DNA from: a virus
Virus record (IMG/VR): IMGVR_UViG_3300032288_002838
Location: 1 to 44,065 of that record
Direction: 5' to 3' (one strand)
DNA: 44,065 nt
Shown: piece by piece, positions 1,294 through 44,065 of the stretch
How positions within the stretch are numbered: position 1 is the stretch's first letter
Layout of the letters: every line of letters starts with the position of its first letter
The notes under the pieces: model-generated
Told to the model about the DNA's origin: nothing
Databases searched by the model: none
What the model saw: the letters and a program-made list of their open reading frames with translations, nothing else
Made by a program: the position numbers and the translations under genes

Positions 1294-1626
1294 TTGGCAA
1301 CTACAGTATATGATGTTGAAGAAATTCAACTACAAAATGGCGCAACAGTTAAACTTAAGCCTTTAACAATTAAAGAGCTTCGTGAGTTTATGAAAGTCAT
1401 TCAGAGAACACAAGAAGTAACATCAGAAGATGAGACATTGACAATTCTTATTGAGGCATGCGGAGTGGCACTACAAAAGCAACTCCCAGACCTAGTAGCA
1501 GATAAAGACGCATTTGAAGACACACTTGACGTTCCAACTATCAATCGCATTCTAGAAGTTTGCGGCGGAATTAAGATGGACGACCCAAACCTACTAGCGG
1601 CAGCAGTACTGGCTGGTCAGAACTAG
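1294..1626 (+). CDS. Tail assembly chaperone, short form (gpG-like)
   Basis: A 110-residue protein starting at TTG (1294) with AGGAGGAT (1282-1289) just upstream. It matches the short tail assembly chaperone of long-tailed phages: an N-terminal beta segment (QLQNGATVKLKPLTIKELRE) followed by helices. These chaperones coat the tape measure and recruit tube subunits; they are not part of the mature virion. It sits between the major tail protein and the tape measure, the invariant place for this gene, and carries a slippery heptamer eleven codons before its stop for making the extended form described separately. Confidence 0.85.
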   Translation: MATTVYDVEEIQLQNGATVKLKPLTIKELREFMKVIQRTQEVTSEDETLTILIEACGVALQKQLPDLVADKDAFEDTLDVPTINRILEVCGGIKMDDPNLLAAAVLAGQN

Positions 1627-1958
1627 ATCTAGCCGCTTTAGAAGGGGAAGTTTTTCTTCTTGGTAATTGGATAAATTACGAACAATTAGAAGATAATCTT
1701 TCAATGCCAGAGTTGATCCAGACTTTTAAATCAATGCAAAAGACTGAATCGGAGAAAAGAAGATTCTTAGCTTCAATTCAGGGAGTAGATTTAAATGAAA
1801 GCAGTAATGAAAATGAGGAGGATTCATCCTTCGAAGATGTTAGAAGAAGAGCGCTTGGTATAAATGCAGCAGCAAATGATGTTGTTTCATTACAAGGATC
1901 TTTTGCCAGCGAAGCTGGTTTTGGCATCGGAGCAGGATTAGGATACCGAATAGAGTAA
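1294..1958 (+). CDS. Tail assembly chaperone, long form by -1 ribosomal frameshift (gpGT-like)
   Basis: The product is predicted to read 99 codons of the short chaperone, slip back one base on C CCA AAC (1584-1590) and continue in the -1 frame to the TAA at 1956-1958, giving about 221 residues. The -1 frame is open across the junction and carries LDLAALEGEVFLLGNW and MPELIQTFKSMQ, a recognisable GT-type extension, well before any good start codon. The first ATG in that frame (1704) has no ribosome site and lies in mid-domain, so independent initiation is unlikely. The T domain is expected to contact the tape measure, which starts 9 bp after this stop. Confidence 0.85.
1584..1590 (+). other. 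-1 programmed frameshift slippery site (CCCAAAC)
   Basis: In the chaperone frame the bases read GAC CCA AAC, giving a canonical X XXY YYZ heptamer C CCA AAC. A one-base backward slip re-pairs as CCC AAA and enters the open -1 frame that encodes the GT extension. No obvious stable stem or Shine-Dalgarno-like stimulator was identified nearby. Confidence 0.85.
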
Positions 1959-1967
1959 TATAAGTAT

Positions 1968-7900: not shown

Positions 7901-10274
7901 AAAAGAAACTATATCCGATGCTCAAGCTGTTAAAGAAAGAAATCAAATGATGTATGAGAGCATGACTACATCTGGAACGCCACTAAAATTAACTATAGAG
8001 CAATACAAAAAATTAAAGAAAGAAGTTAATTCTGTATACAAAGATCAGATAGCGCTTATCAATAAGACAAGCTACGATGATCAGGCAAACCTTGCTATAA
8101 GATTAAAAGAGCAGTTGATGGCTATGGGCATGTCTGCGGAGGACGCCACAGCAAAAATTTATGCAATGTATAAGGCATCAAATCAAGCAAGTAATGCATC
8201 AGCGTTTACAACTTCATCTAAAGCATTTATGAATATAAAAACTGCAGTCGATGCAGCCCGTGAAGCAATTCACACTTACAGAGATGCTGTTAGAAAAGAT
8301 CTGGACCCAACTGAGCAAGCCAATGCCCTGAACACTGCAGCAATGGCAATTGACACTGCAATTGCAGATAAAGAATCTGAAGCAATGAAGGCACGTAAAA
8401 AAGATAAAAGCAAGCCTTCATTTATTAGCACAGCCGAATCTGATTCAATTAAATGGGATGCAGAAAATAAAGCAATTACAGAGATATCAAAACAGCTTGG
8501 ATACCAAAAGCAACTAAGCAAAGAAACTCTTGATGAAATGGAAAAGTCAAACCCCGCACTTAGAAAGATTGCCTCCGAACAAGATACTGTTTTAACTCTT
8601 TGGAAAAAAACAAGAATTGAAGCAAGAGGATTTGTTGGAGATCTATCTGGTCTATCTGCTGCACAAACAAATGCTCTGTATGCTTTGCAGAGCGCAGTAG
8701 CAAAGGGCGTTGAAACAACAAATAGAGGCGGAATACTAAAGACGCAATATGCTGCATTAGATAAACTTAAGGGATTGCAAGAAAAGTATCAAAAAGCATT
8801 AAAAGGACAATCGGTAGCACAACAAATATCTGATAGAGATAGACTTGCTGCAATTAACAAGCAAATTGATGCTAACAATAAATTAGCAGAGGCAAGAAAG
8901 AAAGCACTCCAGGATAAAAAGAATGAGCAAGATTCTGGAAGAGCAATTGAGGCTAAAAAACTTGAGCTTCAAAATGCAGAGGCTACTGGAAACACAGCTG
9001 GTGCACAGCAAGCAAGACTTGATCTTGAAGGCCTGGTTGCTACACAGCAGTATGACGCACAGATTAAGGCCATCGACGCAGCAACAGAAAAAGCAAATGC
9101 CCCTCTTAAAAAAGCGGCAGAAGCTATGGCTAAAAAGCAGCAAGATCTTGGCGATGCAGCTGCATACGCAGGAGAAAAGCTTGGCGATGTAACTAAAGAT
9201 ATTGAAACAAGCGAGGGCAAGATCGAGGCTTTAAACAAAGCTATGACTACCTACAGACTTGCAATTGCAGTTCATAAAGATGATTTGGCAAAATGGAAAA
9301 CAACAGATGAAGCTAAGGGAATGCTGGCAGCAATTACTCAAGCAGCAACAAATGCAAAAGTAGACATGTCTGGGCTTCCAAAAGATAAAGATGGAAATAT
9401 TGGAATTGCAGCTGGTGAAGCTTTATTTGATAAAATATCATCTGGTCTTGAAGCTTCATTAAAAGAGCAAGGTATTGTTGTAAATGGTGATGTAATTATT
9501 AATGGCAAGAAAATAGATCTTGGTAACGCTGGCTCAAAGACAGCAACGTTGGCAGATCCTGGAAAAATTGCTGGAAAGAAAACTGGAACTGGGGACTCAA
9601 CTAAATACTTTACTCAATCTGGAAAAGAAGTAAGTAAAAAAGAATACGACTCCATGCCAGTAGGCGCACCTTCACAAGGCCAGTCCTATATAATTCCAGA
9701 TAGCAAGTTAAGCGGTAAAGAATTTGCTAACAGAGATGCAGCAACAAGAGCATTTTATAAAGCTCATAAAACTTCTTGGGAACAAGGCGATATGACATAC
9801 TATTCCAATGGAATGGTAATGCAAGGTGGAAAAGTAATTGGTTCATGGCTTGCAGCAATGGGAGATCAGAGCGGAAGAGTTAAGTCTTATAAAGATGGTG
9901 GTCTGCTTTCTGGACCAGGAACTGGTACATCTGATTCTATTTATATGCCAATGATGCCAAAAGGCAAGTATGCTTCTGGAGCATATGTTTCAAATGGAGA
10001 GTTTGTTGTAAACGCCCAAGCTGTAAGACAACCAGGAATACTTCCACTTCTTGAAAGAATTAACAACATGCAGTATTCTGTTCCACAGTCTAATTTCCAA
10101 GCAGCGGCATTCAATGTTGGATCAGGAAGCACAATTAATTTAACACAAAACATTTATCCATCTGATGGAATGAATACGGAATCGTTTGTAAGACAGGTTG
10201 TAACAATGACAAAGCAAGCTATTGGACAAGATGCAAAGCTTAATGCTAAAATGGTAGGAACAAAGAGGACATAA
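1968..10274 (+). CDS. Giant tape measure protein with embedded enzyme-like regions
   Basis: A 2768-residue protein that sets tail length and is ejected during DNA entry. Order seen: N-terminal helical region; tape-measure core (about 175-500); hydrophobic helices (about 537-571); Gly-rich FVINKAST/GEAVIPANIA repeats (about 900-975); a globular region with EHVLP (1157-1161) and GNKASNH (1179-1185); a kinase-like region (about 1330-1560) with VFVKP (Lys1360), Glu1371 and GDKDLGRGN (1440-1448); the tape-measure signature GEKGPELFVP (about 1785-1794); more hydrophobic helices (about 1810-1860 and 1925-1939); a Lys/Glu/Ala-rich coiled coil (about 2290-2440); and a C-terminal NGEFVVN motif (about 2680). 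It starts 9 bp after the chaperone stop without a clear ribosome site, so translational coupling is likely. Tape-measure identity is secure; the embedded domain calls are tentative. Confidence 0.95.
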   Translation: MADNLITTNITAHADFTSLRTQLAAVTAQLVKLQETTAGTNAKLANQIAVMNKSFAETMRSTGQFSSHFVSLSSDVDKFGKNLDRGRLKLNDYYNAWNGHTKKTSNLIRDLAKQQVMLQQAIVQPVGKNAQGLMQYNVMVAKGLDEVKNKMALARQEAAIMNKVMLDGSNQLINWGKNTQWAGRQLTVGLTVPLAAFGMAAQKAFREADAELVRLTKVYGGLAATSSADLAQVRKDITATAKEIASSYGVAYKETIALAADLAATGQQGNDLIQATQQTTRLAVLGEVDRQDAMKATLAIQNAFKQNTEELTQSIDFLNAVENQTSTSLADLTEAIPKAGPVIKSLGGDVKDLALYLTAMKEGGVNAAEGANAIKSAMASLINPTKVATEQFAGFGIDLKGIVNSNAGDLTGTIMALQAALDKLNPLDKSRAIEQLFGKFQFARMSALFENLGKQGSQTLQVMDLMKASAVDLAQISERELKMMTESASGQFKRAWASVQADLAQTGEQFLRISTQVLKVVDSIIKFFQNLPGPVKTFLNALGGLTAIAGPLIMMAGVMGNFIGYVVKGIFHLRQLAKGGQGFKLLTPEIMAAEAAAKGLATSFYSDSEATIVLSNAVNTLTESFNNLELKANAAKTAVQPAISTVAGGVLMAGGVQSGRVVDKNNPLVGAPYSRDMSHLIPAQSQQMGTIFGTVPGAGPVNVRIGKNPQAYMNQDMPKIPGVTSVNGTSTGIVAQEAAKWHAMTAAIAMQSEAEIKILKAEVMATGTVTSSLADSYQALLPQFSEITQLAAAETEAIVAQLQASKITVDQARAKVMQMNATVEAMLAETAAATAAGMGRVANLTTVPLTSQPVVDPLTGKSNMKEMFHKGTTKDIVDKIARALGGVRTSGAGYNIQTTKPKFAKGGIVPGTGNTDTYHTTAEEGSFVINKASTEANMPIIDDLLGGAKLLNSGGQVPVVLTPGEAVIPANIAQNNMPLMYSLNGGPGNTGGTGHPIGGRILPTVKSMAGLRGVATRWSQNNYNQDFKYRSIIHDATALVQKGVAPETAIAIVARDFDKAILRTMDKNTGTISDAKWARLRQAQLTELENELLVNGLMPQEARILGTKNPRRSPISGKGGPQSAMDIMSIMSDMGYDQVHLKRIKNSFGLHQDFTSEHVLPYEAWKQNADFNLYQAVAGNKASNHFTMNMERKLLRFNKENLMPDTYPKTQAEADLRMQKLLEITGYPTVEKLLAAGKQIENGLMTPGMRSILAFAESTLTKKSLSRNKGGSIPGRFAQRLFGGGKALFLGMPKTIKQVEQQRAMKAAMEKADIAVKDSRFAKHPVTEYGDLLEPTSGRSFPVPGIGGVYTRNGEKVFVKPMLDEKAALAEMRATQIAREAHGLKAPKQTLNVMRDPTDPKGLRKLLVLESPFDKALTVQDGKFTTDEYFRQLLASSLRGDKDLGRGNLSGNVLSDVGTAGVFSTASGLRDYAGFMPSVGDQAMVNLLGIKGSGAKKFFAESTMDIPKGMTPDAYNSRMLEEIEATLPRLKKTIGSFDLNQQEKVVYAKMIKRLEDARDVKWRELHGVHSAVVPSKEANLTPAALAKIAAAEELKRRQSGHIVSLSDAGFKSSANGFAIGGMIGNVLKGKAMHRIGAGFGPTGAPKPSMYESAPWGVNSLSIEMANTLFANTGLRKHTQKLFYDKFAAALAKEKPYGYVKDAKGSLKNALEPDVLDAVVRSAASDLIGDRSVLKQLSPIDKDILRQKYLNWESKKDTPLTESLKKIIFGLEGREKGGPVNGGQAYVVGEKGPELFVPRVSGGIVPNNKYGIGGTVGMLATMIAPQMIASKISNPMAAMIAQTISFVLPQMIMQNMAMKKMAGGAPGTIMSKIPESIRTGATTPIGVVSGKTGGLTKYGSALTNMASSGSKVGSVLSKIGFAATRLNVGLAVLTTAIIVGKNRWDAHKESMRLNALGYGMTAEAAKKAGLRFTDFNKKLKETISDAQAVKERNQMMYESMTTSGTPLKLTIEQYKKLKKEVNSVYKDQIALINKTSYDDQANLAIRLKEQLMAMGMSAEDATAKIYAMYKASNQASNASAFTTSSKAFMNIKTAVDAAREAIHTYRDAVRKDLDPTEQANALNTAAMAIDTAIADKESEAMKARKKDKSKPSFISTAESDSIKWDAENKAITEISKQLGYQKQLSKETLDEMEKSNPALRKIASEQDTVLTLWKKTRIEARGFVGDLSGLSAAQTNALYALQSAVAKGVETTNRGGILKTQYAALDKLKGLQEKYQKALKGQSVAQQISDRDRLAAINKQIDANNKLAEARKKALQDKKNEQDSGRAIEAKKLELQNAEATGNTAGAQQARLDLEGLVATQQYDAQIKAIDAATEKANAPLKKAAEAMAKKQQDLGDAAAYAGEKLGDVTKDIETSEGKIEALNKAMTTYRLAIAVHKDDLAKWKTTDEAKGMLAAITQAATNAKVDMSGLPKDKDGNIGIAAGEALFDKISSGLEASLKEQGIVVNGDVIINGKKIDLGNAGSKTATLADPGKIAGKKTGTGDSTKYFTQSGKEVSKKEYDSMPVGAPSQGQSYIIPDSKLSGKEFANRDAATRAFYKAHKTSWEQGDMTYYSNGMVMQGGKVIGSWLAAMGDQSGRVKSYKDGGLLSGPGTGTSDSIYMPMMPKGKYASGAYVSNGEFVVNAQAVRQPGILPLLERINNMQYSVPQSNFQAAAFNVGSGSTINLTQNIYPSDGMNTESFVRQVVTMTKQAIGQDAKLNAKMVGTKRT

Positions 10275-24272: not shown

Positions 24273-24479
24273 ATGATTACCTACGAGATACCAGATCCAT
24301 TTGAGACATTTGTTTCAAATAAGTATAAAAATTATGTAGGCGCAGTATACGATTTCTTTGCTAGAGAATGGCATATGAAATGTGGATGCTGTAAAGAAGA
24401 TTTATATGCACCAACAAAAAAGATATTAACTAAAATTAGGTTATATCACACTAGAAATGAATGCACAGGCGGATACTAA
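24273..24479 (+). CDS. Small cysteine-rich protein before the DNA polymerase gene
   Basis: A 68-residue protein with a possible metal site (Cys37, Cys39, Cys40, His59, Cys64). It is coupled to the polymerase gene by TAATG, so one leaderless start may drive both. No ribosome site is present. I recognise no family; it may be a polymerase accessory or regulator, which is only inferred from position. Confidence 0.55.
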   Translation: MITYEIPDPFETFVSNKYKNYVGAVYDFFAREWHMKCGCCKEDLYAPTKKILTKIRLYHTRNECTGGY

Positions 24480-27400
24480 TGAGCTTTACACACCTACATG
24501 TTCACTCCTATTATTCATTAATGGATGGACTAAATTCACCTAAAGAATTATGTCAAGCAGCGTTAGATGCTGGGCAAACTGCGATTGCAATCACAGACCA
24601 TGGGACCCTCTCGTCACACAGAGATATGCAGATTGCCGCAAAGGAAACTGGCATTAAGCCAATTCTTGGTGTTGAGGCGTACATTTCTCCAACCGATAGG
24701 TTTGACAGATCATCTAAAACAGACAAATCTATTCAGGCCTATAACCATATTATTTTGCTAGCGAAAAATAAAAAGGGGTTGGAAAATATTAATGCCTTGC
24801 AAGAGCTTGCTTGGAATGAAGGTTTTTATCATAAGCCACGTATTGATAGGGAGATTCTTAATGATTATAAAGAAGGCATTATCGTACTCAGTGGATGTCT
24901 TAACGGTCTTATTAGTAAGGCTATTGAAAAGGGCAATGATGATGAGGCTAAGATTTTGCTCAAAAGCTTTAAGCAAATGTTTGGGGATGATTTTTATGTG
25001 GAAGTCCAATCACATAACCCTATGGAAATTAACTCAGCGCTACTAAGGCTTGCAGATGAACTTAAAATTAAGGCGGTGGCAACAGGAGATGCTCACTTTG
25101 CTAAAGAAGAAGATAGAATCCTAGAAGAAGCATTGCTAATCCTATCAACATCTCCAAAGGCTGATAAGGATATGGATTTTGATATGTCTAGAAACATGAA
25201 GGACATGTTAGATAGATTTAACTATCTTTATCCTGATAGAAGAATATCATTTCAAGATATGAATTTATTTATTCAGAGCCGTTCCGAAATAGAAGCAGAC
25301 TTTAATAAGGCTGGCATTAATCGAACAGACATCTATGAGAATACAATGGAAATTGCTGATAAGGTTGGGGAATATGACTTCTATCAGGGCCTAGACCTCC
25401 TGCCAGTTCCAAAGACCGATGCTGATGAAAGACTAAGGGAGTTGGCTGAAAAGGGCTTAGAGAGGCTTCAGAAGGCTTCAGACCCTATTTATATCGATAG
25501 GCTTAACGAAGAGCTTGGCATTATTGCCAAGAAAAATTTTGCCTCATACTTCCTTGTTGTTGGAGACATGATTAATTGGGCTAAAGAAAATAATATTATG
25601 GTTGGTCCAGGCCGTGGTTCGGCTGCTGGATCTTTAGTTTGTTATACATTAGGAATTACTGATGTTGACCCTATCAAATACGATCTGCTGTTCTTTAGAT
25701 TTATTAATGAAGAGCGCAATGACTTTCCAGATATTGATACCGATTTTGAAGACCGCCGTAGAAAAGAAGTTAAAGATTATTTAAAGAAGAAGTTTAAGCA
25801 CGTTGCATCCATTTCAACATATACATACTTTAAAGACAAGGGTGTAGTTAGAGATGCTTCTCGTGTTTTCATGGTTCCTCTGCAAGAAGTTAACCGTGCA
25901 CTAAAATCCGTAGATACTTTTGAGGACTTTATTGATTCACCGAATACAAAAGAATTTAGAATGCGCTATCCAGAAGTTGTTTGGCTTGCCGACAGGCTTC
26001 GTGGAAGAATCAGATCAGTTGGCGTACACGCCGCTGGCGTGGTTGTTGCAAAAGATGATTTAAGAAAATTTGCGCCAGTTGAATCTCGTGAAGATTCTCA
26101 AGATAAAGTTTCAGGAAGAATTCCAGTCGTCGCATACGACATGGATACGGTTGCAGATATAGGTCTTATTAAGCTAGATGCACTAGGTCTTAAGACTTTA
26201 TCTGTGATCTCTGACACACTTAAATCAATTAAAGATCGACACGGCAAAACAATTAATCTTTCTGAGATGACCCTGGACGATGCTAATGTTTACAAAATGT
26301 TGAACGACGGGTACACTAAGGGCGTATTCCAGGCAGAAGCAACTCCCTACACAAACCTTTTAATTAAAATGGGTATAGATAAGTTTGAAGATCTTGCTGC
26401 ATCTAATGCCCTTGTTCGCCCTGGAGCAATGAATACGGTTGGCGCAGCTTACATTAATCGTAAAAATGGCAATGAGGCCGTAGACTATATGCACACAATC
26501 ATGAAGCCGTTTACCGAGAACACATATGGTGTTATTATATATCAAGAGCAGGTTATGCAGGCATGCGTACACTTGGGCGGTATGACTTGGGCAGAGGCTG
26601 ATAAGGTCCGCAAGATTATTGGAAAGAAAAAAGATGCAAAAGAATTTGACCAGTTCAAGGATAAGTTTATTACTGGGGCTTCAGAACACATTACTAAGAA
26701 AAAGGCAGAAGCGCTATGGCATGATTTTGAAGCGCATGCTGGTTATTCTTTTAACCGCTCCCATGCTGTTGCTTACTCTATGCTTAGTTATTATACTGCT
26801 TGGCTTAAGTTCTATTATCCACTTGAGTTCATGTTTTCAATTCTTAAAAATGAAAATGATAAAGATGCGAGAACAGAATATTTAATTGAGTCTAAGAGAC
26901 TTGGTCTAAAGGTACTGCTGCCACACATCAACGAATCTCAGGTATATTTTTCTTTACAAGAAAATGCAATTAGATTTGGTCTAGCTGAAGTAAAATTTAT
27001 TTCAGATAGTATTGCAAATAAGATCATAGAAAGAAGACCGTTCAGTGACTATGCTGACTTTATTGATAAAGCATCGAAAAAGGGTTCTGGCATTAATAGC
27101 CGTGCTATTGCTGCTCTTAACTCCATCGGCGGTGCTGCGTTTACTGATAACAAAAGGCAAGGAAATGAAAAAGACAATTACTACGAATACCTAGGCATTC
27201 CAACATTTAATCTTGAAGGTATCCCACCAAGAATTAAAGCACAGGCAAGACCAATTGAAGAGTTTGATGATCTAGGATCATTTGTTATGTTTGGAATGGT
27301 TAAGTCTATTAAGCGTGGGAATGGGTGGGCTAGAGTAGAGCTAGTAGATGAGACTGGATCAATAGGTTTATTCCACACAGAGCAAACACAAATTGAAACA

Positions 27401-27748
27401 GGCCAAATGTATTTTATTCTTGTCGGAGATAATAGAATTGCAAGGTACATCAAGGTTTCGGATATCAATCCAGATTCTAGCGACCTATTTGTAGACTACC
27501 TATATAGGAAAAAGTATGACCTTGAAGAAGACGAGTACATTGTGGTAAACTTTACTCCATACACAACAAAGGCTGGCAAACAAATGAGCCACATCGTCTT
27601 GTCGGATAAAGACAAGAACTTAACCAGAGCTATTGCTTTCCCAGCAATGTATAAAATGACGTTAGCAAAAATGCGTGAGGGAATGAAATGTAAGGTAGTG
27701 TTAGCAAAACTTGATGACGGAACACTAAATATTAAGGAGATCCTGTGA
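24479..27748 (+). CDS. dnaE: DNA polymerase III alpha subunit (DnaE-type)
   Basis: A 1089-residue polymerase. I start it at ATG 24479, which overlaps the previous stop by TAATG; another ATG 18 bp earlier is less likely. The N-terminal PHP domain keeps its metal ligands: HLHVHS (5-10), ITDHGTL, HKPR, LSGC and GDAHF, so it may still proofread. The palm has GPGRGSAAGS (376-385) and the catalytic PDIDTDFED (Asp418, Asp420, Asp422). Thumb and fingers follow, and residues about 930-980 look like an OB fold (FVMFGMVKSIKRGN). It is slightly shorter than bacterial DnaE. It should replicate the phage genome; no sliding clamp gene is visible here, so it may use the host clamp. Confidence 0.93.
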   Translation: MSFTHLHVHSYYSLMDGLNSPKELCQAALDAGQTAIAITDHGTLSSHRDMQIAAKETGIKPILGVEAYISPTDRFDRSSKTDKSIQAYNHIILLAKNKKGLENINALQELAWNEGFYHKPRIDREILNDYKEGIIVLSGCLNGLISKAIEKGNDDEAKILLKSFKQMFGDDFYVEVQSHNPMEINSALLRLADELKIKAVATGDAHFAKEEDRILEEALLILSTSPKADKDMDFDMSRNMKDMLDRFNYLYPDRRISFQDMNLFIQSRSEIEADFNKAGINRTDIYENTMEIADKVGEYDFYQGLDLLPVPKTDADERLRELAEKGLERLQKASDPIYIDRLNEELGIIAKKNFASYFLVVGDMINWAKENNIMVGPGRGSAAGSLVCYTLGITDVDPIKYDLLFFRFINEERNDFPDIDTDFEDRRRKEVKDYLKKKFKHVASISTYTYFKDKGVVRDASRVFMVPLQEVNRALKSVDTFEDFIDSPNTKEFRMRYPEVVWLADRLRGRIRSVGVHAAGVVVAKDDLRKFAPVESREDSQDKVSGRIPVVAYDMDTVADIGLIKLDALGLKTLSVISDTLKSIKDRHGKTINLSEMTLDDANVYKMLNDGYTKGVFQAEATPYTNLLIKMGIDKFEDLAASNALVRPGAMNTVGAAYINRKNGNEAVDYMHTIMKPFTENTYGVIIYQEQVMQACVHLGGMTWAEADKVRKIIGKKKDAKEFDQFKDKFITGASEHITKKKAEALWHDFEAHAGYSFNRSHAVAYSMLSYYTAWLKFYYPLEFMFSILKNENDKDARTEYLIESKRLGLKVLLPHINESQVYFSLQENAIRFGLAEVKFISDSIANKIIERRPFSDYADFIDKASKKGSGINSRAIAALNSIGGAAFTDNKRQGNEKDNYYEYLGIPTFNLEGIPPRIKAQARPIEEFDDLGSFVMFGMVKSIKRGNGWARVELVDETGSIGLFHTEQTQIETGQMYFILVGDNRIARYIKVSDINPDSSDLFVDYLYRKKYDLEEDEYIVVNFTPYTTKAGKQMSHIVLSDKDKNLTRAIAFPAMYKMTLAKMREGMKCKVVLAKLDDGTLNIKEIL

Positions 27749-27780
27749 TAAAAGATACTTTAAAGATTGGAATATAATAT

Positions 27781-28137
27781 ATGTCAGATAACTCACTTGC
27801 CGATATTAAGTCAAGGCTAAATGCTTCAAATATGCTTACAGCAATATTATATAGCTTAGGCTCTGTCGAAGTTAAGCGTGAAGAGCTAGATAAGATACTG
27901 GACTATCAAAAGCCAGAGCACCTAATGGATTTAAGTGTTGATGAGACATATAAAGATACATTCATGGACTACATCAAGCATAGAGGCGGATATGCCTCAT
28001 TGCAATACGATGACAGCTCAGATAAGATGAAGTTTACATTGATGTCTAGAGAAGAAGCTGAGCAGGAAATGAAAGACGGCAAGTCGTTAGGATTTGTTTG
28101 TGTAAGATCATATTGGAATGACTATGCCCACTCATAA
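27781..28137 (+). CDS. Tandem family member 1, unknown function (LN-S / GG-YD family)
   Basis: A 118-residue acidic protein, the first of four consecutive related genes. Shared features in order: RLNAS near the start, a short hydrophobic helix (LTAILYSLG), a KREEL segment, DYIKHRGG, a strand with QYDDSSDKMKFTL, then REEA and GFVCVRSYWN at the end. Unlike members 2 and 4 it has no N-terminal extension and has Ser-Tyr in place of Arg-Pro in the final motif. I recognise no known family. It lies 32 bp after the polymerase stop and overlaps member 2 by 20 bp. Confidence 0.7.
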   Translation: MSDNSLADIKSRLNASNMLTAILYSLGSVEVKREELDKILDYQKPEHLMDLSVDETYKDTFMDYIKHRGGYASLQYDDSSDKMKFTLMSREEAEQEMKDGKSLGFVCVRSYWNDYAHS

Positions 28138-28549
28138 CATATATTTAGAGGATGGAATTACTTTAACAAAAGATGAGTGTGACAAAAGAAACTCTGAGAT
28201 AGAGGAAGTTTTCCATAGACTAAATGCCTCAACTCTACTTACAATGATTTTTCAAAATTTTGGAACAATATCTTTTAAGAGAGATGAAGTCATTCAAATT
28301 AATGCATACGAAATGCCACCCAACAATACATCAGTTAACCCGTACGATGAAGATTTTTTTGATTATATCAAGGACCTTGGCGGTCATGTTCTTGTAAAGT
28401 ATGATCCGCAGTCAGACAACGTATCGCTTGCTCTAGCCACTAGAGAAGAGGGAATTGATTCTCAAATAAAAGGCAATTCTGTAGGATTTTTTTCAATAAG
28501 AAGGCCGTGGAATGTCCACAGCATCAAACAAAATCAGGAGGAAAGATAG
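28118..28549 (+). CDS. Tandem family member 2, unknown function
   Basis: A 143-residue relative of its neighbours; a second ATG at 28124 could also be the start. Shared motifs: RLNAS, a hydrophobic helix (LLTMIFQNFG), FKRDE, NPYDEDFFDYIKDLGGHVLV, KYDPQSD, TREEG and the closing GFFSIRRPWN. The N-terminal part (YLEDGITLTKDE) resembles the start of member 4 (YTSDGKHVRED), so members 2 and 4 are the closest pair. Function unknown. It overlaps member 3 by TAGTG. Confidence 0.7.
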   Translation: MTMPTHNIYLEDGITLTKDECDKRNSEIEEVFHRLNASTLLTMIFQNFGTISFKRDEVIQINAYEMPPNNTSVNPYDEDFFDYIKDLGGHVLVKYDPQSDNVSLALATREEGIDSQIKGNSVGFFSIRRPWNVHSIKQNQEER

Positions 28550-28746
28550 TGACAGAAGAACAGGATATTTTTGCATCTCTTAATGTTTCAAAGATATTAG
28601 TTGCAATTTTAGAGATACATAAAGAAATTATAGTGCCAAGCAAATTATTTTTAGATGCGGCAACTGTTGATAAAGAACTACAGGTTGATTACGATTCTGA
28701 GAATCAATCATTTAAGTTTAAGCTAAAGGATAAAGATGACAAATAA
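28549..28746 (+). CDS. Tandem family member 3, short form
   Basis: A 65-residue protein that starts at GTG 28549, overlapping the previous stop, with AGGAGG (28537-28542) in good position. It keeps the first part of the family (ASLNVSKILVAIL) and a QVDYDSENQSFKFKL strand, but lacks the DYIK-GG block and the GFFSIRRPWN end. It may be a natural short form, a decay product of a duplication, or a partner of the longer copies. Overlaps with both neighbours suggest it is still expressed. Confidence 0.6.
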   Translation: MTEEQDIFASLNVSKILVAILEIHKEIIVPSKLFLDAATVDKELQVDYDSENQSFKFKLKDKDDK

Positions 28747-29242
28747 TAATGATGACGTGTACACCTCTGACGGCAAGCATGTTAGAGAAGATGTAGTAAA
28801 CGAAAGAAAATCAGATGTTACAGATATTTATCAGAAACTAAATTCTTCAATTCTTTTGGGTTTTATGCTTAGCCAAATGCCGCAAGCTGCTTTTAATCGA
28901 GAAGACATGATGCCAATTAGAAATTCAGAACCTATTAAAAACGATGAAAATATAAACCCTTATGATGAAAGTTACACAGATTACATTAAAGATCTAGGAG
29001 GCCATGTCCTTGTTCAGTATGATCAGGAGACAGATAAGGTAAAGTTCAGATTATGTAATGAAGAAGAGGGAGATAGAATGATTCAAGAAGGAAATTGCAT
29101 AGGATTTTTTTCAATTAGAAGACCTTGGAATATTCAGGGATGGGGTAATAGTACATACAAGAGACAGTTTCCATACGTTAAGGAGGAAAACCAAGATGGT
29201 CCAGGATTCAATAACGACCAGCTCATTGAAAGTTTCGAATAA
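28736..29242 (+). CDS. Tandem family member 4, unknown function
   Basis: A 168-residue protein, the longest copy. Motifs in order: KLNSS, LLGFMLSQMP, NRED, NPYDESYTDYIKDLGGHVLV, QYDQETDKVKF, EEEG and GFFSIRRPWN, followed by a private acidic tail of about 40 residues. That tail is encoded over the ribosome site and start of the next gene (AGGAGG at 29181), so translation of this copy may influence the pyrophosphohydrolase. Function unknown. Confidence 0.7.
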   Translation: MTNNNDDVYTSDGKHVREDVVNERKSDVTDIYQKLNSSILLGFMLSQMPQAAFNREDMMPIRNSEPIKNDENINPYDESYTDYIKDLGGHVLVQYDQETDKVKFRLCNEEEGDRMIQEGNCIGFFSIRRPWNIQGWGNSTYKRQFPYVKEENQDGPGFNNDQLIESFE

Positions 29243-29585
29243 AGAAATAGAGCTAGTAACAGATTTTGGACTAGATGTTCTTTCTGCTTTACTTCATGAG
29301 ACTGCTATTGAAAAAGGATTTTGGGATAAGCCAAAAAACTTTGATGTTTTTGGAAATAAGCTAGCCCTAATTCATTCTGAAGTTACAGAAGTTCTTGAGG
29401 CAATGAGAAAGAATAAGGGCTCTGAAGAAATTGTAGAAGAAATGGTTGATATTTTAATTAGAACTCTTGATCTATACGCATCAATGCGTAACGGCGGTTT
29501 TGTAGAGCATAGCATAGATGAAGTTTTATTTAAAAAAATGGAAAATAACAAAGTTAGACCAAGGCTTCACGGCAATTTATTTTAA
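29196..29585 (+). CDS. MazG-like nucleotide pyrophosphohydrolase
   Basis: A 129-residue all-helical protein with the MazG/NTP-PPase metal motif: ExxE (Glu62 and Glu65 in SEVTE) and ExxD (Glu82 and Asp85 in EEMVD). Family members cut NTPs or dNTPs to NMP and pyrophosphate. Phage copies are thought to clean nucleotide pools, handle modified nucleotides or lower host ppGpp. AGGAGG (29181-29186) gives a strong start, although the gene overlaps the preceding one by 47 bp. It lies between the tandem family and RecA. Confidence 0.8.
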   Translation: MVQDSITTSSLKVSNKEIELVTDFGLDVLSALLHETAIEKGFWDKPKNFDVFGNKLALIHSEVTEVLEAMRKNKGSEEIVEEMVDILIRTLDLYASMRNGGFVEHSIDEVLFKKMENNKVRPRLHGNLF

Positions 29586-29617: not shown

Positions 29618-30622
29618 ATGACTATAGCGATTGATGAAATCCTAGCAGGATTAGATCCAAAAACAAGAGCAAGAGTAAAAGCAGCACAAGATGTAAAAGT
29701 TGAAAAGCAAAAGACCCCTAGCATTGGCCTAAACATGGCCCTAAAGGGTGGATTGGGCTATGGTCGACAAGTTCTTGTTTGGGGAAATAAATCTGCAGGA
29801 AAGTCATCATTCTGTTTACAAATGATTGCTCTTGCACAAAAAGAAGGCAAGACTTGTGCATGGATTGATGCAGAGGCTTCTTATGATCAATCATGGGCAG
29901 AGATGCTAGGAGTAGATTCTTCTTCCCTTATTTACTCACCAGCCAAAACAGTAAATGATATGGTTGATGTTGCTACAAAATTAATGGATGCAGGCGTAGA
30001 TATCATTGTTGTGGACTCGATCTCAGCACTATTGCCAGCAATCTATTTTGAAAAAGATGGAAATGAAATGAAAGATTTGCAAGACACAAAGCAAATCGGC
30101 GCTGAAGCAAAGGATATGACTCACGCAGTCAAGATGTTAAACTATGCAAACAAGAACACATTATTGGTACTCATCTCACAACAGAGAAATCAGTTTGGAT
30201 CTATGCATGCCTCCCACATACCGACAGGAGGAATGGCAGTCAAGTTCTTCTCTTCCACCGTCATTAAACTTTGGTCTTCTGAGGCTGAAGCTAATGCTAT
30301 CAAAGCTGGTATTAAAGTTGGTGACAAAATTATTGAACAGAGGGTTGGCAGACCAGTCAATTGGGTTATTGATTACAACAAACTCGGCCCCCCTAACCTA
30401 TCTGGACAGTACGATTTCTATTACCAAGGAGAGTCACTAGGTGTAGACTTAGTTGGAGAAACCTTAGATGTTGCAGAAATGGTTGGAGCGGTTGAAAAAG
30501 GTGGAGCCTGGTACACAGTTAATGAAGAAAGACTACAGGGACGTGCAAAGGCTGTCGCTTATTTAAGAGATAACCCAGAAGTTGTTGATAAATTAATTAA
30601 GGACATTGATGCCAAATCTTAA
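29618..30622 (+). CDS. recA: RecA-type recombinase
   Basis: A 334-residue RecA-family ATPase. Walker A is GNKSAGKS (56-63), the Walker B strand is DIIVVDSISAL, and an ISQQRN segment matches the ATP-sensing loop 1 side. The GGMAVKFFSS stretch matches RecA KFY/SS positions. It should form filaments on ssDNA and drive strand exchange in replication or repair, working with the RuvC-like and Cas4-like nucleases downstream. It is a little shorter than bacterial RecA and lacks a long acidic tail. Confidence 0.92.
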   Translation: MTIAIDEILAGLDPKTRARVKAAQDVKVEKQKTPSIGLNMALKGGLGYGRQVLVWGNKSAGKSSFCLQMIALAQKEGKTCAWIDAEASYDQSWAEMLGVDSSSLIYSPAKTVNDMVDVATKLMDAGVDIIVVDSISALLPAIYFEKDGNEMKDLQDTKQIGAEAKDMTHAVKMLNYANKNTLLVLISQQRNQFGSMHASHIPTGGMAVKFFSSTVIKLWSSEAEANAIKAGIKVGDKIIEQRVGRPVNWVIDYNKLGPPNLSGQYDFYYQGESLGVDLVGETLDVAEMVGAVEKGGAWYTVNEERLQGRAKAVAYLRDNPEVVDKLIKDIDAKS

Positions 30623-30806: not shown

Positions 30807-31111
30807 TGTCAGAGCGAGCAGAAGTAAAAAGAGATGGAGCCAAGGCTCAAAAAAATTCGGGCAGAGGAGACTATCAAAAAGGTGATGCACAATGGAAGCA
30901 GTTCCTTGTTGATTATAAAGAGGCTGGATCTTCATTCACTTTAAACAAAGATAACTGGGCAAAGATATGCACAGACACATTTAGGGTTAATAGAGATATG
31001 CACCCAGCGTTAAAAATTATTATAGGATCCGAATCTAAAGTTAGGTTAGGAATAATAGAGTGGTCAGTTTTAGAAGAGTTAATAGAGTTCTGGGAGGAAC
31101 ATCATGAATAA
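30806..31111 (+). CDS. Conserved-looking small phage protein of unknown function
   Basis: A 101-residue protein with a very basic, flexible start (KRDGAKAQKNSGRGDYQKGD) and a helical rest with aromatic residues. The start looks suited to nucleic-acid binding. I recognise no named family. It overlaps the first oxygenase gene by 8 bp and follows the RecA-linked zinc protein, so it belongs to the recombination operon. Confidence 0.55.
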   Translation: MSERAEVKRDGAKAQKNSGRGDYQKGDAQWKQFLVDYKEAGSSFTLNKDNWAKICTDTFRVNRDMHPALKIIIGSESKVRLGIIEWSVLEELIEFWEEHHE

Positions 31112-32075
31112 ATATCAAGTAATGCCACAAGTAGTTATATATAGAGATATGTTTAACAAAGATGAGTTAAAAAGATTTTATGATTTAATGGATTTGTATG
31201 AAAATGATACAAGCCAATTTGAGATTACTCATGAAGAGCTTTCAACAAGAGGTGATAATCATGGGGTCTTGCCACAAGAAAAAGAAGACGTGTCCCCACT
31301 AAACGAATGGGTCCCTTGGCACACATTTGGAAAGAAAACATTTTTTAACTTTAAGCAAATGCCAGAGAATCTTTCAGATGAAAATTTAAAGTTTTTATAT
31401 CAATTTAGGGAAAAGCTTTATGGAATATTTTCAGTTGTATTCAAGGATTACATTAATGAATGGTCAGCCTCTGGTTACTGGCCAGACTATATCGATAACT
31501 GGAAGCTAAACGAGCCAGGTGCTGGCAGAATGCATTACTCTGTGATAGAAATTTTAAAACATGATATACATGCAGAAAAGAATTTGGCAATTACATTTCA
31601 CACTGATGCACATAAGCATAGAGTCGGGCAGCCTAGAGCCCAGCAAATTATTACAATTACAATCTATGTGAATGACGACTATACTGGTGGGGAAGTTGAG
31701 TTCTTGAATGAAATTGACGAAGTTCCAAAAGTAATTACATACAAGCCAGGGGTTGGAGACGTAACAGTATTCCCATCAGGCATACCTTATTGGCACTCAG
31801 CAAAAGCCGTAACTGAAGGGAACAAAAAGGTTTTTGTTAGAGTTTTTGCTCAGTGGGATTACCCAGGGTCAAAGGAATGGTTTGAAGGAATAGAAACTCA
31901 CGGAGAAGAAGAATGGCTTAGGATTGTAGATGAGAGTGTGCAAGAAAAGGTATCAACGGGAATCTATGATCGTGAAGTTAGAATTGAAGGAACAAAGTGG
32001 CAGGACGTAAATCCTGCAATTAAGGTTGAAGTTTCTAAAGAAAACCATATTTATGTAGACGGAAGATCTATGTAA
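31104..32075 (+). CDS. 2-oxoglutarate/Fe(II)-dependent dioxygenase, copy 1
   Basis: A 323-residue protein with the prolyl-4-hydroxylase-like double-stranded beta helix. The iron triad is His166-X-Asp168 (FHTDAH) and His231 (YWHSAK), with Arg246 (KVFVRVF) placed to bind 2-oxoglutarate. Strands ITIYVNDDYTGGEVEFL and DVTVFPSGIPYW are typical of the family. It should hydroxylate a protein, nucleic acid or small molecule; the substrate is unknown. It forms a tandem pair with the next gene, and both proteins end alike (YVDGRSM and YIDGRLI), pointing to duplication. It starts after GGAGGAA. Confidence 0.85.
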   Translation: MNKYQVMPQVVIYRDMFNKDELKRFYDLMDLYENDTSQFEITHEELSTRGDNHGVLPQEKEDVSPLNEWVPWHTFGKKTFFNFKQMPENLSDENLKFLYQFREKLYGIFSVVFKDYINEWSASGYWPDYIDNWKLNEPGAGRMHYSVIEILKHDIHAEKNLAITFHTDAHKHRVGQPRAQQIITITIYVNDDYTGGEVEFLNEIDEVPKVITYKPGVGDVTVFPSGIPYWHSAKAVTEGNKKVFVRVFAQWDYPGSKEWFEGIETHGEEEWLRIVDESVQEKVSTGIYDREVRIEGTKWQDVNPAIKVEVSKENHIYVDGRSM

Positions 32076-33028
32076 TGGAAAAAATTAATTTATTGCCTGG
32101 TATTAATGTATACAAAGGGCTGTTTAATAATGTTGAAAATATTTTAAATATTGTTAAAAATTCAGAAGGAGACATAAAGGATCAGCACGAGCCTTCTGGT
32201 AAAGGGTTTATTCGTGACTGGGTAAAGTGGTATGATTTTGGAATAATGACTAACTTTGCTCCCGATCTTGTTGGCAAAAAATTAATGTCTTCCGAAAAAG
32301 ATGAGTTAAAAAAAGAAACCATATCCGAGCAGATTAAAGCAAAACAAGAAATTGTAAATGTCATTGATTTTGTTTTTAATGACTATATGTCTGAATGGAA
32401 GAATGTTGTAGATTGGCCCAGCTATGTTAAAAACTTTGGGCTTTCTAAAGAATATACTTCTCATATAGAGCCAGATAACTCTAAGAGAAGCCTAACTCTG
32501 CAACAAATTGATGCATTAAAACACAATATATATCCAGATAAAGATTTTGCAATAAACTTTCATTCCGACAGCCCTAGATACCATGAAGATGAGCCTGGGT
32601 TTAAACAAATGCTTTCTTTAACTATATATTTAAACGATGATTATGAAGGCGGGGAGATACAGTTTTTAAATGATAAAGAAAATAAACTTATTACCTATAA
32701 ACCAAAAGCTGGAGATATGACGATATTTCCTTCTTTTCATCCATTTTGGCATGCCGCAAAACCAGTTGTAAGCGGTAGCAATAAATATCTTTTGCGTGTA
32801 TTTATATCTTGGTACTATGATGGATCTCAAGAATGGATACAGGGAAGAGATACATATGGTCTTGCAAAATGGAAATCAATGCAAGAAGACAGAGAAAATG
32901 ATGAAGTCAATAATGGGAACAACGAAAGAATGGTTTTGATTGATGGGCAAGCCGCATACGATTACCCAGCAGTCAAGGTTTATATTGAAAGTAGTAATAG
33001 CACCTATATAGATGGGAGATTGATATAA
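32075..33028 (+). CDS. 2-oxoglutarate/Fe(II)-dependent dioxygenase, copy 2
   Basis: A 317-residue paralogue of the preceding protein, joined by TAATG. The catalytic set is conserved: His163-X-Asp165 (FHSDSP), His226 (FWHAAK) and Arg241 (LLRVF), with the same core strands (LTIYLNDDYEGGEIQFL). The N-terminal third differs more, which suggests another substrate or partner. It is coupled to a tiny membrane protein by a second TAATG. Confidence 0.85.
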   Translation: MEKINLLPGINVYKGLFNNVENILNIVKNSEGDIKDQHEPSGKGFIRDWVKWYDFGIMTNFAPDLVGKKLMSSEKDELKKETISEQIKAKQEIVNVIDFVFNDYMSEWKNVVDWPSYVKNFGLSKEYTSHIEPDNSKRSLTLQQIDALKHNIYPDKDFAINFHSDSPRYHEDEPGFKQMLSLTIYLNDDYEGGEIQFLNDKENKLITYKPKAGDMTIFPSFHPFWHAAKPVVSGSNKYLLRVFISWYYDGSQEWIQGRDTYGLAKWKSMQEDRENDEVNNGNNERMVLIDGQAAYDYPAVKVYIESSNSTYIDGRLI

Positions 33029-35570: not shown

Positions 35571-36107
35571 ATGAGCGAATTAGAGCCAGCGGTGCACTTT
35601 GACAGAATGAACAGAGTTGTTCAAGAATTGCTAAAGGGTAACTCCGCAACACAAATAGCAACAAACACAGGATTCTCCAGAAAAGAGGTCCTTGAGTATG
35701 TTGATGAGTGGAAGTCTGTAGTACATAACGATACTAATTTAAGAGATCGTGCAAGAGAGGCAATCTCTGGAGCAGACGAACATTATGCAATGCTAATTAA
35801 AGAGGCCTGGAAGACCGTAGAGGATGCAGACACCCAAGGACAGCTTAGCGTAAAGGCGGGCGCCCTAAAATTAATTGCGGACATTGAAACAAAAAGAATA
35901 GCTATGCTTCAATCTGTAGGCGTGTTAGAGAATACTCAAATTGCATCTCAAATTGCTGAAACAGAAAGAAAGCAAGATATCCTTGTAGGAATTTTAAAAG
36001 AGGTTACTGCTGGTTGCCCTAAATGCAAGATGGATGTTGCAAAAAGGTTGTCTCAAATAACAGGTATTGTTGAGAGCGTACTGATCCACGAGTCAGATGC
36101 TATCTAG
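35571..36107 (+). CDS. Probable terminase small subunit
   Basis: A 178-residue protein with an N-terminal helix-turn-helix (NSATQIATNTGFSRKEVLEY, about 24-43), a helical middle (about 60-140) suited to oligomer formation, and a CPKC pair near the end. TerS proteins bind packaging sites through such HTH domains and assemble into rings. It lies one gene before the large terminase, which supports the call. It has its own promoter and probably a leaderless start. A general DNA-binding regulator is the alternative. Confidence 0.65.
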   Translation: MSELEPAVHFDRMNRVVQELLKGNSATQIATNTGFSRKEVLEYVDEWKSVVHNDTNLRDRAREAISGADEHYAMLIKEAWKTVEDADTQGQLSVKAGALKLIADIETKRIAMLQSVGVLENTQIASQIAETERKQDILVGILKEVTAGCPKCKMDVAKRLSQITGIVESVLIHESDAI

Positions 36108-36690
36108 TACATTCCCATTTTCTATAAGTGTTGATAAGTTTAAACAAATAAGCGATGGCATATGGGTGTATAAAAAATTTATTCCTGAGCAAGAGTGCAA
36201 TTTAATTATTGAATCAGCCAGCAAAATTCCAGAACACATGTGGTTTGAAAGAGATTGGTATAAGTCTACAAAAAAACAAATAAATCAACTACTACCAATA
36301 CATAAAAAAATAAATTCTATTTTAAAAAAAGATTTTTATCTTGGAGAAAACCTTAGCCTTGTAAAATTTATAAAAGGTCAGACATGGAATTTGCATAAAG
36401 ACAATCACGATTCTTTGCACATACTCGAATCAAATTCAAATATAAAAGAAGGAGAGACGGTCTACCCAGCAGAGTACACTACGCATGGAGTGATATTTTA
36501 TTTTAATGAATACGATGGTGCCGAAATATCATATCCAGAGCTTGGAATAAAGTATAAGCCAGAAAAGGGAGACATGTTGGTTCATAGATCAGACATAGCT
36601 CATGAGGTATTGGCTCTAGAAAGCGATATAAGATACACGCATTCTAATAAAATTTTTGTATATCTAAATGTACCACTCGGTGTCATATGA
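36097..36690 (+). CDS. Third 2-oxoglutarate/Fe(II)-dependent dioxygenase
   Basis: A 197-residue oxygenase, smaller and more distant than the tandem pair at 31-33 kb. The iron ligands are His100-X-Asp102 (NLHKDNH) and His169 (DIAHEV); strands GVIFYFNEYDGAEISYP and KGDMLVHRS fit the family. It overlaps the terminase small subunit by 11 bp and the large subunit by ATGA, an odd place for such an enzyme, so it may modify a virion protein or DNA late in infection. The substrate is unknown. Confidence 0.78.
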   Translation: MLSSTFPFSISVDKFKQISDGIWVYKKFIPEQECNLIIESASKIPEHMWFERDWYKSTKKQINQLLPIHKKINSILKKDFYLGENLSLVKFIKGQTWNLHKDNHDSLHILESNSNIKEGETVYPAEYTTHGVIFYFNEYDGAEISYPELGIKYKPEKGDMLVHRSDIAHEVLALESDIRYTHSNKIFVYLNVPLGVI

Positions 36691-38744: not shown

Positions 38745-38818
38745 GCAACAGTAGCTTAGTTGGTTAAAGCCCCGAACTCATAATTCGGTAATCGTAGGTT
38801 CGAGTCCTACCTGTTGCA
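38745..38818 (+). tRNA. tRNA with CAU anticodon (Met, or Ile2 reading AUA)
   Basis: A full cloverleaf: acceptor GCAACAG/CTGTTGC, D stem GCTT/AAGC, anticodon stem CCGAA/TTCGG with loop CTCATAA, T stem GTAGG/CCTAC with TTCGAGT. The anticodon is CAU. It could be elongator Met or, after lysidine modification, Ile reading AUA, which would suit the phage's many AUA codons. No CCA is encoded. Confidence 0.9.
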
Positions 38819-38819
38819 C

Positions 38820-38891
38820 ACCTCTGTAGCTCAGCGGAAGAGCAACAGACTTCTAATCTGTTGGTCGCTGGTTCGATTCCAGCCAGGGGTA
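38820..38891 (+). tRNA. tRNA-Arg (UCU anticodon)
   Basis: Acceptor ACCTCTG pairs with CAGGGGT (one G-U). D stem GCTC/GAGC, anticodon stem ACAGA/TCTGT with loop CTTCTAA (anticodon UCU), T stem GCTGG/CCAGC. It reads AGA/AGG, and AGA is the commonest arginine codon in most genes here. It starts one base after the first tRNA. Confidence 0.92.
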
Positions 38892-38892
38892 C

Positions 38893-38965
38893 GTTCCTAT
38901 AGCTCAGCTGGTAGAGCAGCAGACTTTTAATCTGCGGGTCGATGGTTCGATACCATCTGGGGACA
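38893..38965 (+). tRNA. tRNA-Lys (UUU anticodon)
   Basis: Acceptor GTTCCTA pairs with TGGGGAC (with G-U pairs). D stem GCTC/GAGC, anticodon stem GCAGA/TCTGC with loop CTTTTAA (anticodon UUU), T stem GATGG/CCATC. It reads AAA/AAG. It is the third of the compact cluster, and the promoter of the next gene begins just after it. Confidence 0.92.
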
Positions 38966-38973
38966 CAAAATAA

Positions 38974-42289: not shown

Positions 42290-44065
42290 TTGACTAAAAG
42301 GATTAAGTACTTTTTAACCAGCCTTTTTATTGTGGGCTGGCTTTTTCTTTTCGGTCCAAGCCTTGCTTATGCTGAGGATGTGCCACAACCATCCGAACAA
42401 GTAATAGTAAGTCCTGCACAAGCAGCAGTTAATACAGCGCTTGCAACAGCAACAACAGAAGTAGCACAAGCTGCACAGGCCTCAGACACAGCAACAGTAA
42501 CAATAGCAGCTGCTGTCCAAGCAGTAACGGCATCTAATGCAGCCGTAGCTGCAGCAAATACTGCGGTTACTGCAGCAACTACTGCGGTATCGGAAGTTTC
42601 AAATGTATCAACAGCAGTAGAAACTGCAACATCAGTTGTTCAAACAATTACTTCAACAGTAGCGGCAGTTACACAAGCCGTAGCTGCAATACCAGCAACA
42701 GCCACAACTCAAACACCAGAGGTTGTAGCAGCGCAAACAGTAGTAACGCAAGCCGTGGCTACTGTAGATTCTGCAGTAGCCACAGTAATAGCAACAGCAA
42801 CTCCATTAATGACAGAGACTCCAACCACGGTTTCACAGGTAGCCACAGCAATTACAACAGAAGTTGCCCAATCAGAGACAGCCACAGGTTTAATTCAATC
42901 AGCACAGACAGCAATAGATACGGCCACTGCAACAGTTGCCACAGCAACTACGGCGGTGGCAGCAGTAACACCTGCACGGACAGAGGCTCAAACACAATTA
43001 ACTCAAGCAAATGTAGCAATTAATAATGCACAGGATGCAGTTAATGCCCTTGCAGCAACTATTGGCACCACAACAAATGTTTTAGCAAACACAGATGATG
43101 CGGGTGTACGCATGAACCTACCATTTAATTTACAAATGGGCGGAGTAACATATAACAATGTTTATGTTGGATCTAATGCAACTATAACTTTTGGAGTAAA
43201 TGAAGGTGGAAATTACTATAGTACGCCAAATGCTCCATCTATTTCTATAGCTGGATACGACTGGACTACTTGGAGCAATGGCTCTGGAATTACATATTCA
43301 ACAACTACAAATACTCTTAGCATTGCTTGGGATCTTAGAGTTTACCCGTTGCAAACAGCAGAAACACAAATGACTCAGGTTAGATTTAATGCAGACGTAA
43401 ACCCATCAGATGGTGCATGGCAAGCAGATGTAAGTGTTACTGGACCAATTCCAAATGGAGCTAGATTTAATGTAAGAGAAACAACAAACGGAACAGTAAC
43501 AGCAATTCAGGACACTAACTCTGGTCCTGGATTTAATGGAACAATAAGCCAAGGCGCTGCATTTACTCCTACCCCTGATCCAGATAATGCAACGGTACTA
43601 GCAGCAATTGATACAGCAAATGCACAAATTGCTACACTAAACTCAGCAGTTACAGCAATTGTTGCAGCAAACACAGCAAATACAAATACAGTAATTGCAC
43701 CTATTGCAACAGTTTCACAAAATACAATTACATCATTAAACAATGCAAGCACGGACTTAACCAATAAGGTAGAAGCAATTGCAGCTGTTTCAGTAGCAGT
43801 AGAAAAAGTAACCACTGCACCAACAATAGTAGAAGCAGCACAAACAGTAATTGATGCAGTCCCAGCTCCTGCACCAGCTCCTGCACCAGCTCCTGAACCA
43901 CCAGTTGTTGAGCCACCTGCTGAAGAACCACCAGTTGTTGAGCCACCAGTTGTTGAGCCACCTGCTGAAGAACCACCAGTTGTTGAGCCACCTGCTGAAG
44001 AGCCACCTGCTGAAGAGCCACCTGCTGAAGAGCCACCTGCTGAAGAGCCACCTGCTGAAGAGCCA
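42290..44065 (+). CDS. Secreted Ala/Thr-rich protein with beta domain and Pro-rich repeats, 3' end cut by window edge
   Basis: Starts at TTG 42290 after AGGAGA and stays open to the edge (at least 592 residues). The N-terminus is a clear signal peptide: Lys/Arg, a hydrophobic core (FLTSLFIVGWLFLFG) and a likely cleavage site after LAYA. Then come about 230 residues of low-complexity Ala/Thr/Val/Gln, a beta-rich domain (about 280-425; MNLPFNLQMGGVTYNNVYVG, WTTWSNGSG, LSIAWDLRV) like a surface lectin or PA14-type sandwich, a second Ala/Thr stretch, and from about residue 525 AP/EP and PPAEE repeats. It is probably exported to the host surface. Any anchor would lie beyond the window. Function unknown; adhesion or blocking of superinfection are options. 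Confidence 0.85.
   Translation, partial: MTKRIKYFLTSLFIVGWLFLFGPSLAYAEDVPQPSEQVIVSPAQAAVNTALATATTEVAQAAQASDTATVTIAAAVQAVTASNAAVAAANTAVTAATTAVSEVSNVSTAVETATSVVQTITSTVAAVTQAVAAIPATATTQTPEVVAAQTVVTQAVATVDSAVATVIATATPLMTETPTTVSQVATAITTEVAQSETATGLIQSAQTAIDTATATVATATTAVAAVTPARTEAQTQLTQANVAINNAQDAVNALAATIGTTTNVLANTDDAGVRMNLPFNLQMGGVTYNNVYVGSNATITFGVNEGGNYYSTPNAPSISIAGYDWTTWSNGSGITYSTTTNTLSIAWDLRVYPLQTAETQMTQVRFNADVNPSDGAWQADVSVTGPIPNGARFNVRETTNGTVTAIQDTNSGPGFNGTISQGAAFTPTPDPDNATVLAAIDTANAQIATLNSAVTAIVAANTANTNTVIAPIATVSQNTITSLNNASTDLTNKVEAIAAVSVAVEKVTTAPTIVEAAQTVIDAVPAPAPAPAPAPEPPVVEPPAEEPPVVEPPVVEPPAEEPPVVEPPAEEPPAEEPPAEEPPAEEPPAEEP
43862..44065 (+). repeat. Proline-rich tandem repeats inside the secreted protein gene
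   Basis: Copies of a 12-base unit (GCACCAGCTCCT) are followed by 15-base units of the type GAGCCACCTGCTGAA alternating with GAACCACCAGTTGTT, encoding AP pairs and PPAEE/PPVVE. They continue to the window edge. Such repeats can expand or shrink by slippage and usually form a stiff stalk crossing a cell wall. Confidence 0.9.

Follow-up and report, generated by a model that had tools for sequence, protein, structure and literature searches.

The window, i.e., the whole 44,065-nucleotide stretch of the IMG/VR virus record IMGVR_UViG_3300032288_002838 that was analysed, carries four consecutive and tightly packed related genes (A, B, C and D) on the plus strand at 27781-29242. As an earlier note, made from the bare sequence, had described, they lie between a gene for a DnaE-like polymerase and genes for MazG- and RecA-like proteins (Table 1). 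The bounds of A to D correspond to the likeliest starts. The genes were also said to overlap. Within the array this holds, since its junctions overlap by 1 to 47 bases (47 at the D/mazG junction), but dnaE and A are separated by a gap of 32 bases.

Table 1. Features of the dnaE–recA interval in the window.
Feature	Position	Strand	Remarks
dnaE-like gene, DNA polymerase III alpha subunit	24461..27748	+	constant upstream partner of the family
Long-form paralogue A (118 aa), carrying the insert and, C-terminally, GFVCVRSYWN	27781..28137	+	
Long-form paralogue B (141 aa), carrying GFFSIRRPWN	28124..28549	+	
Core copy C, 65 aa, GTG start, putatively ancestral family member	28549..28746	+	
Long-form paralogue D (168 aa), carrying GFFSIRRPWN and, at the C-terminus, a tail taken over from C	28736..29242	+	
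Segment of D coding for GPGFNNDQLIESFE, with the mazG start in another frame	29195..29242	+	DNA alignment with the C ends of L010, L016 and L020
MazG-like pyrophosphohydrolase	29196..29585	+	naming in the earlier note; comparison with annotated Streptomyces phage modules
RecA-like recombinase, at the far end of the interval	29618..30622	+	

A, B and D are paralogues, their similarity being far beyond chance (phmmer E = 8e-19 for A–B, 8e-34 for B–D and 1.5e-15 for A–D), and C is joined to them by iterated profile search. The view that all four follow one protein plan is therefore correct as far as paralogy is concerned, but C has neither the DYIKdlGGh insert nor the C-terminal motif and represents the short core only. 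In its predicted model, helices at the N-terminus are followed by the short stretch 'IIVP', one more helix and a hairpin of two strands (helix-helix-helix-beta hairpin). The long forms consist of the C core together with the insert bearing DYIK..GG and a C-terminal segment, preceded in B and D by an N-terminal extension. The sequence GFFSIRRPWN, previously ascribed to each copy, occurs exactly in B and D only; A carries GFVCVRSYWN, and C has no equivalent. When a profile of the long forms was run against the whole window, it matched at the places of A, B, C and D and nowhere else.

The records of many relatives measure 81-134 kb. At 44 kb, the window is therefore probably a fragment, and the premise that several copies are kept in a compact phage genome is doubtful. 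Downstream of the interval, two related adjacent proteins (31104-32075 and 32075-33028) and a third, smaller one (36097-36690) have the look of 2-oxoglutarate/iron oxygenases, judged by eye from their HxD...H patterns; the count of such genes differs between related loci. Three adjoining tRNA genes (Met, Arg-TCT and Lys-TTT) follow the terminase region at 38745-38966. The open frame at 42300-44065 runs past the end of the window and encodes an Ala/Thr/Val-rich product that ends in 15-base (45-base) repeats with a Pro-Glu-rich unit, probably a fibre-like or other surface protein that the end of the contig truncates.

Searches of Pfam, NCBIfam, PADLOC and PDB sequences gave only chance-level hits and no match of the family to any characterised one, which bears out the earlier statement that no named family shows this set of features. 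No known polymerase subunit family was matched by sequence. An NCBIfam match of two members to T6SS VgrG (E 0.0007) was set aside as a chance hit between unrelated short phage proteins and the model of a large protein. A to D had no match among the PADLOC defence models, whose scope is defence and not phage counter-defence in general. In the PDB, no solved fold was matched by C, and no meaningful fold match was obtained with the long-form model (pLDDT 67). Weak profile similarity was observed to PHROG_1264 (110 aa, no assigned function; five members, best E 0.0013), mainly in the hairpin and covering only part of the protein; its sole hits in 14 records fall on or beside C genes. No paper on the C gene was found in the literature searched, the coverage of which is incomplete. 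In the libraries searched, the family is undescribed, with the exception of PHROG_12174, which represents part of the Streptomyces phage branch discussed below.

Since tblastn of D and of one C relative against 50,697 phage records gave no match, homologues were sought through synteny and profiles. A scan of IMG/VR led from C to 80 loci, from D and from B to three each and from A to one, and a further 80 loci were collected with a DnaE profile, so that the sample does not depend on C alone. The loci examined, 176 in number, contain 8,789 ORFs, among which iterated profile searching that started from C reached convergence with 247 members. All 243 of these that can be placed lie just downstream of a phage DnaE, and the remaining four belong to loci without DnaE in view; distant homologues beside replication genes, for which the earlier note had proposed such a search, are thus abundant. 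After removal of duplicate junctions, at least one relative is present in 117 of 121 distinct DnaE–RecA intervals, and at 93 of 118 distinct junctions there is a 4-base overlap between the dnaE stop and the start of the first homologue. When 20 phage records were searched over their whole length, confident copies turned up at the dnaE-linked cluster only. No DnaE–C fusion was seen, the longest homologous ORF being of 172 aa.

The 117 intervals follow the layouts DnaE-C-MazG-RecA (53), DnaE-C-RecA (47) and expanded (17). As C occurs both in the 53 intervals with MazG and in the 47 without a MazG match, the constant neighbour of the C family is DnaE and not MazG. It is consequently very improbable that C is a nucleotide-metabolism partner of MazG or dUTPase and not of DnaE. 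Such a role would suit the presence of MazG after C in over half of the intervals, the dUTPase that follows the C homologue in Circinus and the overlapping D/mazG and C/mazG ends. However, the 4-base overlap is with dnaE, and C is kept in the 47 intervals in which no MazG was matched, although a distant MazG would escape this comparison. Some of these 47 intervals contain other nucleotide enzymes.

The near-universal association applies to one DnaE lineage, because the loci were obtained via C or via a DnaE profile that included C-bearing loci. The phages Lannister, StephanieG and Stormageddon, the DnaE of which is 31-33% identical, carry no homologue; therefore, the family is not a general partner of DnaE. 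Among prokaryotes, a scan of genome contigs with one conserved heptapeptide, which distant relatives would escape, gave no relative of C. Two irregular loci were encountered in the survey. In L104, dnaE is separated from a short C-like ORF by a zinc-finger/HNH-like frame (9266-9580), which gives the impression of a homing-type gene inserted at the junction. In L010, DnaE (1605-4895) is read as two frames split by one stop, whereas the gene is open in the near-identical L012, the result of either a sequencing error or a broken copy.

A counterpart of C was found in cultured phages. Along its full length, the DnaE of the window shares 58% identity with that of the Streptomyces phage BillNye. In the phages Circinus, Braelyn, Wofford and Patelgo, dnaE is followed by a hypothetical gene of about 63-65 codons, then by mazG or a dUTPase gene and by recA. 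The Braelyn protein is present in 86 Streptomyces phage records (tblastn), and its homologues adjoin dnaE, mazG or both among the annotated matches listed. In the Stanwilliamsviridae, this gene corresponds to PHROG_12174, a PHROG without assigned function (e.g., Braelyn gp79 and Mildred21 gp79). PHROG_12174 resembles the C of the window in its DnaE-x-MazG-RecA position, its length, a profile match and, perhaps, its predicted fold. In contrast to the array of the window, it is a single copy without long paralogues, and its divergent rows share only about 18-28% identity with C.

The relationship was examined with a profile from which all Streptomyces-type rows, corresponding to 12 ORFs, had been removed. 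Nine of these 12 ORFs were still recovered and outranked all non-family ORFs (E 8e-6 to 2.5e-3), while the other three scored more weakly (E 0.28-1.5). The top two supposedly non-family ORFs (L107 and L100) are themselves located downstream of DnaE. In a structural comparison, the AlphaFold model of C (pLDDT 82) retrieved as rank 2 of the BFVD a 59-aa Mildred21 protein with TM 0.67/0.72 and a probability of 1.00, but with E 0.055. This entry is equated with gp79, the gene behind dnaE, on the basis of the phage name and the length of 59 aa, and the BFVD matches of the C model as a whole (E 0.02-0.5) are weak for so small a protein. Taken together, the leave-out profile, the synteny and, more weakly, the fold support the conclusion that Streptomyces phages carry the same gene as C. 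A second conserved family of small proteins without assigned function, with the pattern YFLRGxxxxxLLVFRxxxxEExLxIIxxLxASRDK, immediately precedes recA in Streptomyces-type and related phages, between mazG or C and recA (L086:10964-11140, L087:10842-11072, and in L103, L105, L162 and L163); it is not paralogous to the array.

The family pattern 'G-x-I-x-I/V-P ... helix ... hairpin' resembles that of SpoVT-AbrB domains, and the strand-Pro-helix-hairpin part of C shares a loose pattern and a weak fold resemblance with SpoVT-AbrB/MazE proteins (PF04014), from which C differs by its N-terminal helical part. The weak matches of the C model include Sso7c4, MazE and AbrB in the PDB (E of at least 2.8, with TM around 0.2-0.3) and AbrB-like phage proteins in the BFVD. 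On this basis, the proteins could be envisaged as binding DNA by an AbrB/MazE-like hairpin fold, to regulate or to structure it, yet this is quite improbable. The fold matches of this kind recur, but all are non-significant. Moreover, the PF04014 model, which works in control genomes, matched neither the window nor any of 25 members with a cutoff of E 10; the HMMER filters drop most matches above about 0.1. Finally, the family proteins are acidic (pI 4.6-4.9), while most DNA binders are not.

A family tree (91 rows, 77 columns), in which many forks are weak, places the C-type proteins as the backbone and gathers all long forms in one clade (support 98/96), with E, a further long form of other phages, beside A plus (B, D). 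As all long forms share this clade together with the added insert and C-terminal segment, the tree suggests that C was duplicated once, that the insert and the C-terminal segment were then acquired, and that further duplication followed. Judging by these relationships, C is best regarded as the ancestor-like member and the array as a local, lineage-specific expansion in one aquatic lineage. The proposal that the array is an undescribed system has to be modified accordingly: the family is indeed undescribed, but the unit that matters is an ancestral single gene fixed behind dnaE, and not the array.

The expansion takes several forms. The A-B-C-D layout is found in the window and three near relatives, and other phages have A-B-C, A-D-C-MazG-E (L085), A-B-C-MazG-E (L016), C-MazG-E (L032) or C-E (L057). 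The number, order and identity of the long forms are therefore variable, with one to five family copies per phage; D has a different place in the window and in L085, and in the array phages the dnaE-adjacent gene is no longer C. The C of A-B-C phages, for instance that of L010, has GSGFNNDQLIESFE at its end, and the DNA for this stretch overlaps the beginning of mazG. The C of the window has an earlier stop, and it is D that terminates in GPGFNNDQLIESFE, while the DNA across the stop and into mazG is near-identical to that of the A-B-C phages. Because near-identical tail DNA ends C elsewhere, D must have entered at the 3' end of C and taken its tail. The NDQLIESFE tail was also considered as a clamp-binding motif and rejected; such motifs have the form QL(S/D)LF, which it does not fit, and it is common to the overlapping mazG start.

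Exchange between phages is apparent from the comparison of the window with its relative L003 in 50-base steps over 27752-29485. Identity is about 84-100% (mostly over 92) across B, C, D and mazG and 74-86% in the last part of dnaE. It reaches 91-93% on the flanks of A and falls to roughly 50-70% in gene A alone (about 27752-28105). In the tree, the A of the window is sister to that of L085 and not to the A of the near-identical phages L002 and L003. Since identity drops in A alone and the A of the window groups with that of L085, A must have been exchanged as a unit, and the region is best interpreted as a mosaic of exchanges with breaks at gene borders.

In pairwise comparisons with relatives, dN/dS is well below 1 for A, B, C and D wherever computable, and no positive selection was found. 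Because codon substitution thus strongly favours silent changes wherever measurable, all four are judged to be working protein genes. Earlier it had been suggested that selection keeps the diverged copies. Several copies are indeed retained under purifying selection, but this selection is not positive, and A is exchanged between close relatives. Median identities are 0.61 for A, 0.64 for B and 0.76 for C, as compared with 0.94 for DnaE. The faster change and the exchange of the long paralogues could reflect varying partners, host- or phage-specific, or a weaker constraint. In the extreme case, A, B and D would be nearly neutral duplicates in recombining genomes that form no system, only the core C being functional. 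The range of one to five copies, the exchange of A and the changing place of D would be expected from such duplicates. This explanation is nevertheless rather unlikely, as all copies, A and B included, are under purifying selection, and the added insert and C-terminal segment are kept across the long forms.

The reading tentatively preferred here, with a chance that falls somewhat short of even, is that C is a small acidic accessory protein of the phage DnaE replicase and that A, B, D and E are its diversified paralogues. As the family follows DnaE, usually with a start overlapping the dnaE stop, C may be expected to act on or with the phage polymerase. C would be made together with DnaE through coupled translation. 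Beyond the synteny, paralogy and purifying selection that were observed, we infer that it may bind DnaE and serve the phage replicase as an accessory subunit, contributing to stability, to proofreading or to contact with the clamp or the helicase. The long paralogues, as diversified versions, would work beside C or connect the replicase with further proteins of the phage or the host, and their faster change and exchange between phages would thereby be accounted for. Several points weigh against the accessory reading: no DnaE–C fusion was seen, neither a known polymerase subunit family nor a solved fold was matched, the BFVD matches are weak, phages with a more distant DnaE have no homologue, operon neighbours can adjoin without interacting, and in the array phages A starts 32 bases past dnaE, with C displaced.

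That a phage can encode a small protein accessory to Pol III is shown by Hot of phage P1, which is described in one account as able to replace the theta subunit of Pol III (HolE, PF06440; PMC7556043). No family member searched has a Pfam match to PF06440 (HolE/Hot), and Hot lies in a late-gene group and not, like C, behind a phage dnaE. The theta subunit is an all-helix protein, in contrast to the beta hairpin in the C model.

The main rival to the accessory reading is a host-directed set of inhibitors, in which C and its paralogues would block host replication or other host proteins during takeover and the array would supply versions for each target. Small, acidic and fast-evolving proteins, varying in copy number and order, would suit this role, as would the replacement of A alone in phages whose flanking DNA is 91-93% identical. 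The idea is unlikely, though still a serious contender: a near-universal, fixed place behind dnaE would sooner be expected of a component of the replisome than of a variable takeover gene, dN/dS indicates purifying selection in all cases, and confident copies elsewhere are absent from the records searched.

If C is indeed an accessory protein of DnaE, one companion subunit may have given rise to two to five diverged ones, assembled in a modular hetero-oligomeric complex whose composition is swapped from phage to phage and thereby fits the phage polymerase to different hosts or to parts of the host replisome; as a specific model, this is unlikely.

With respect to the searchable literature, a conserved companion of one phage DnaE lineage that has expanded to a multi-member array in aquatic phages appears to be new. 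A gene kept behind the phage polymerase in more than 100 distinct aquatic and soil phages, with no assigned function, is a good candidate for a missing part of the Pol III replicase. The single-copy versions in Streptomyces phages make the C family testable in the laboratory, and the aquatic series of one to five copies provides natural material on why a phage diversifies such a part.
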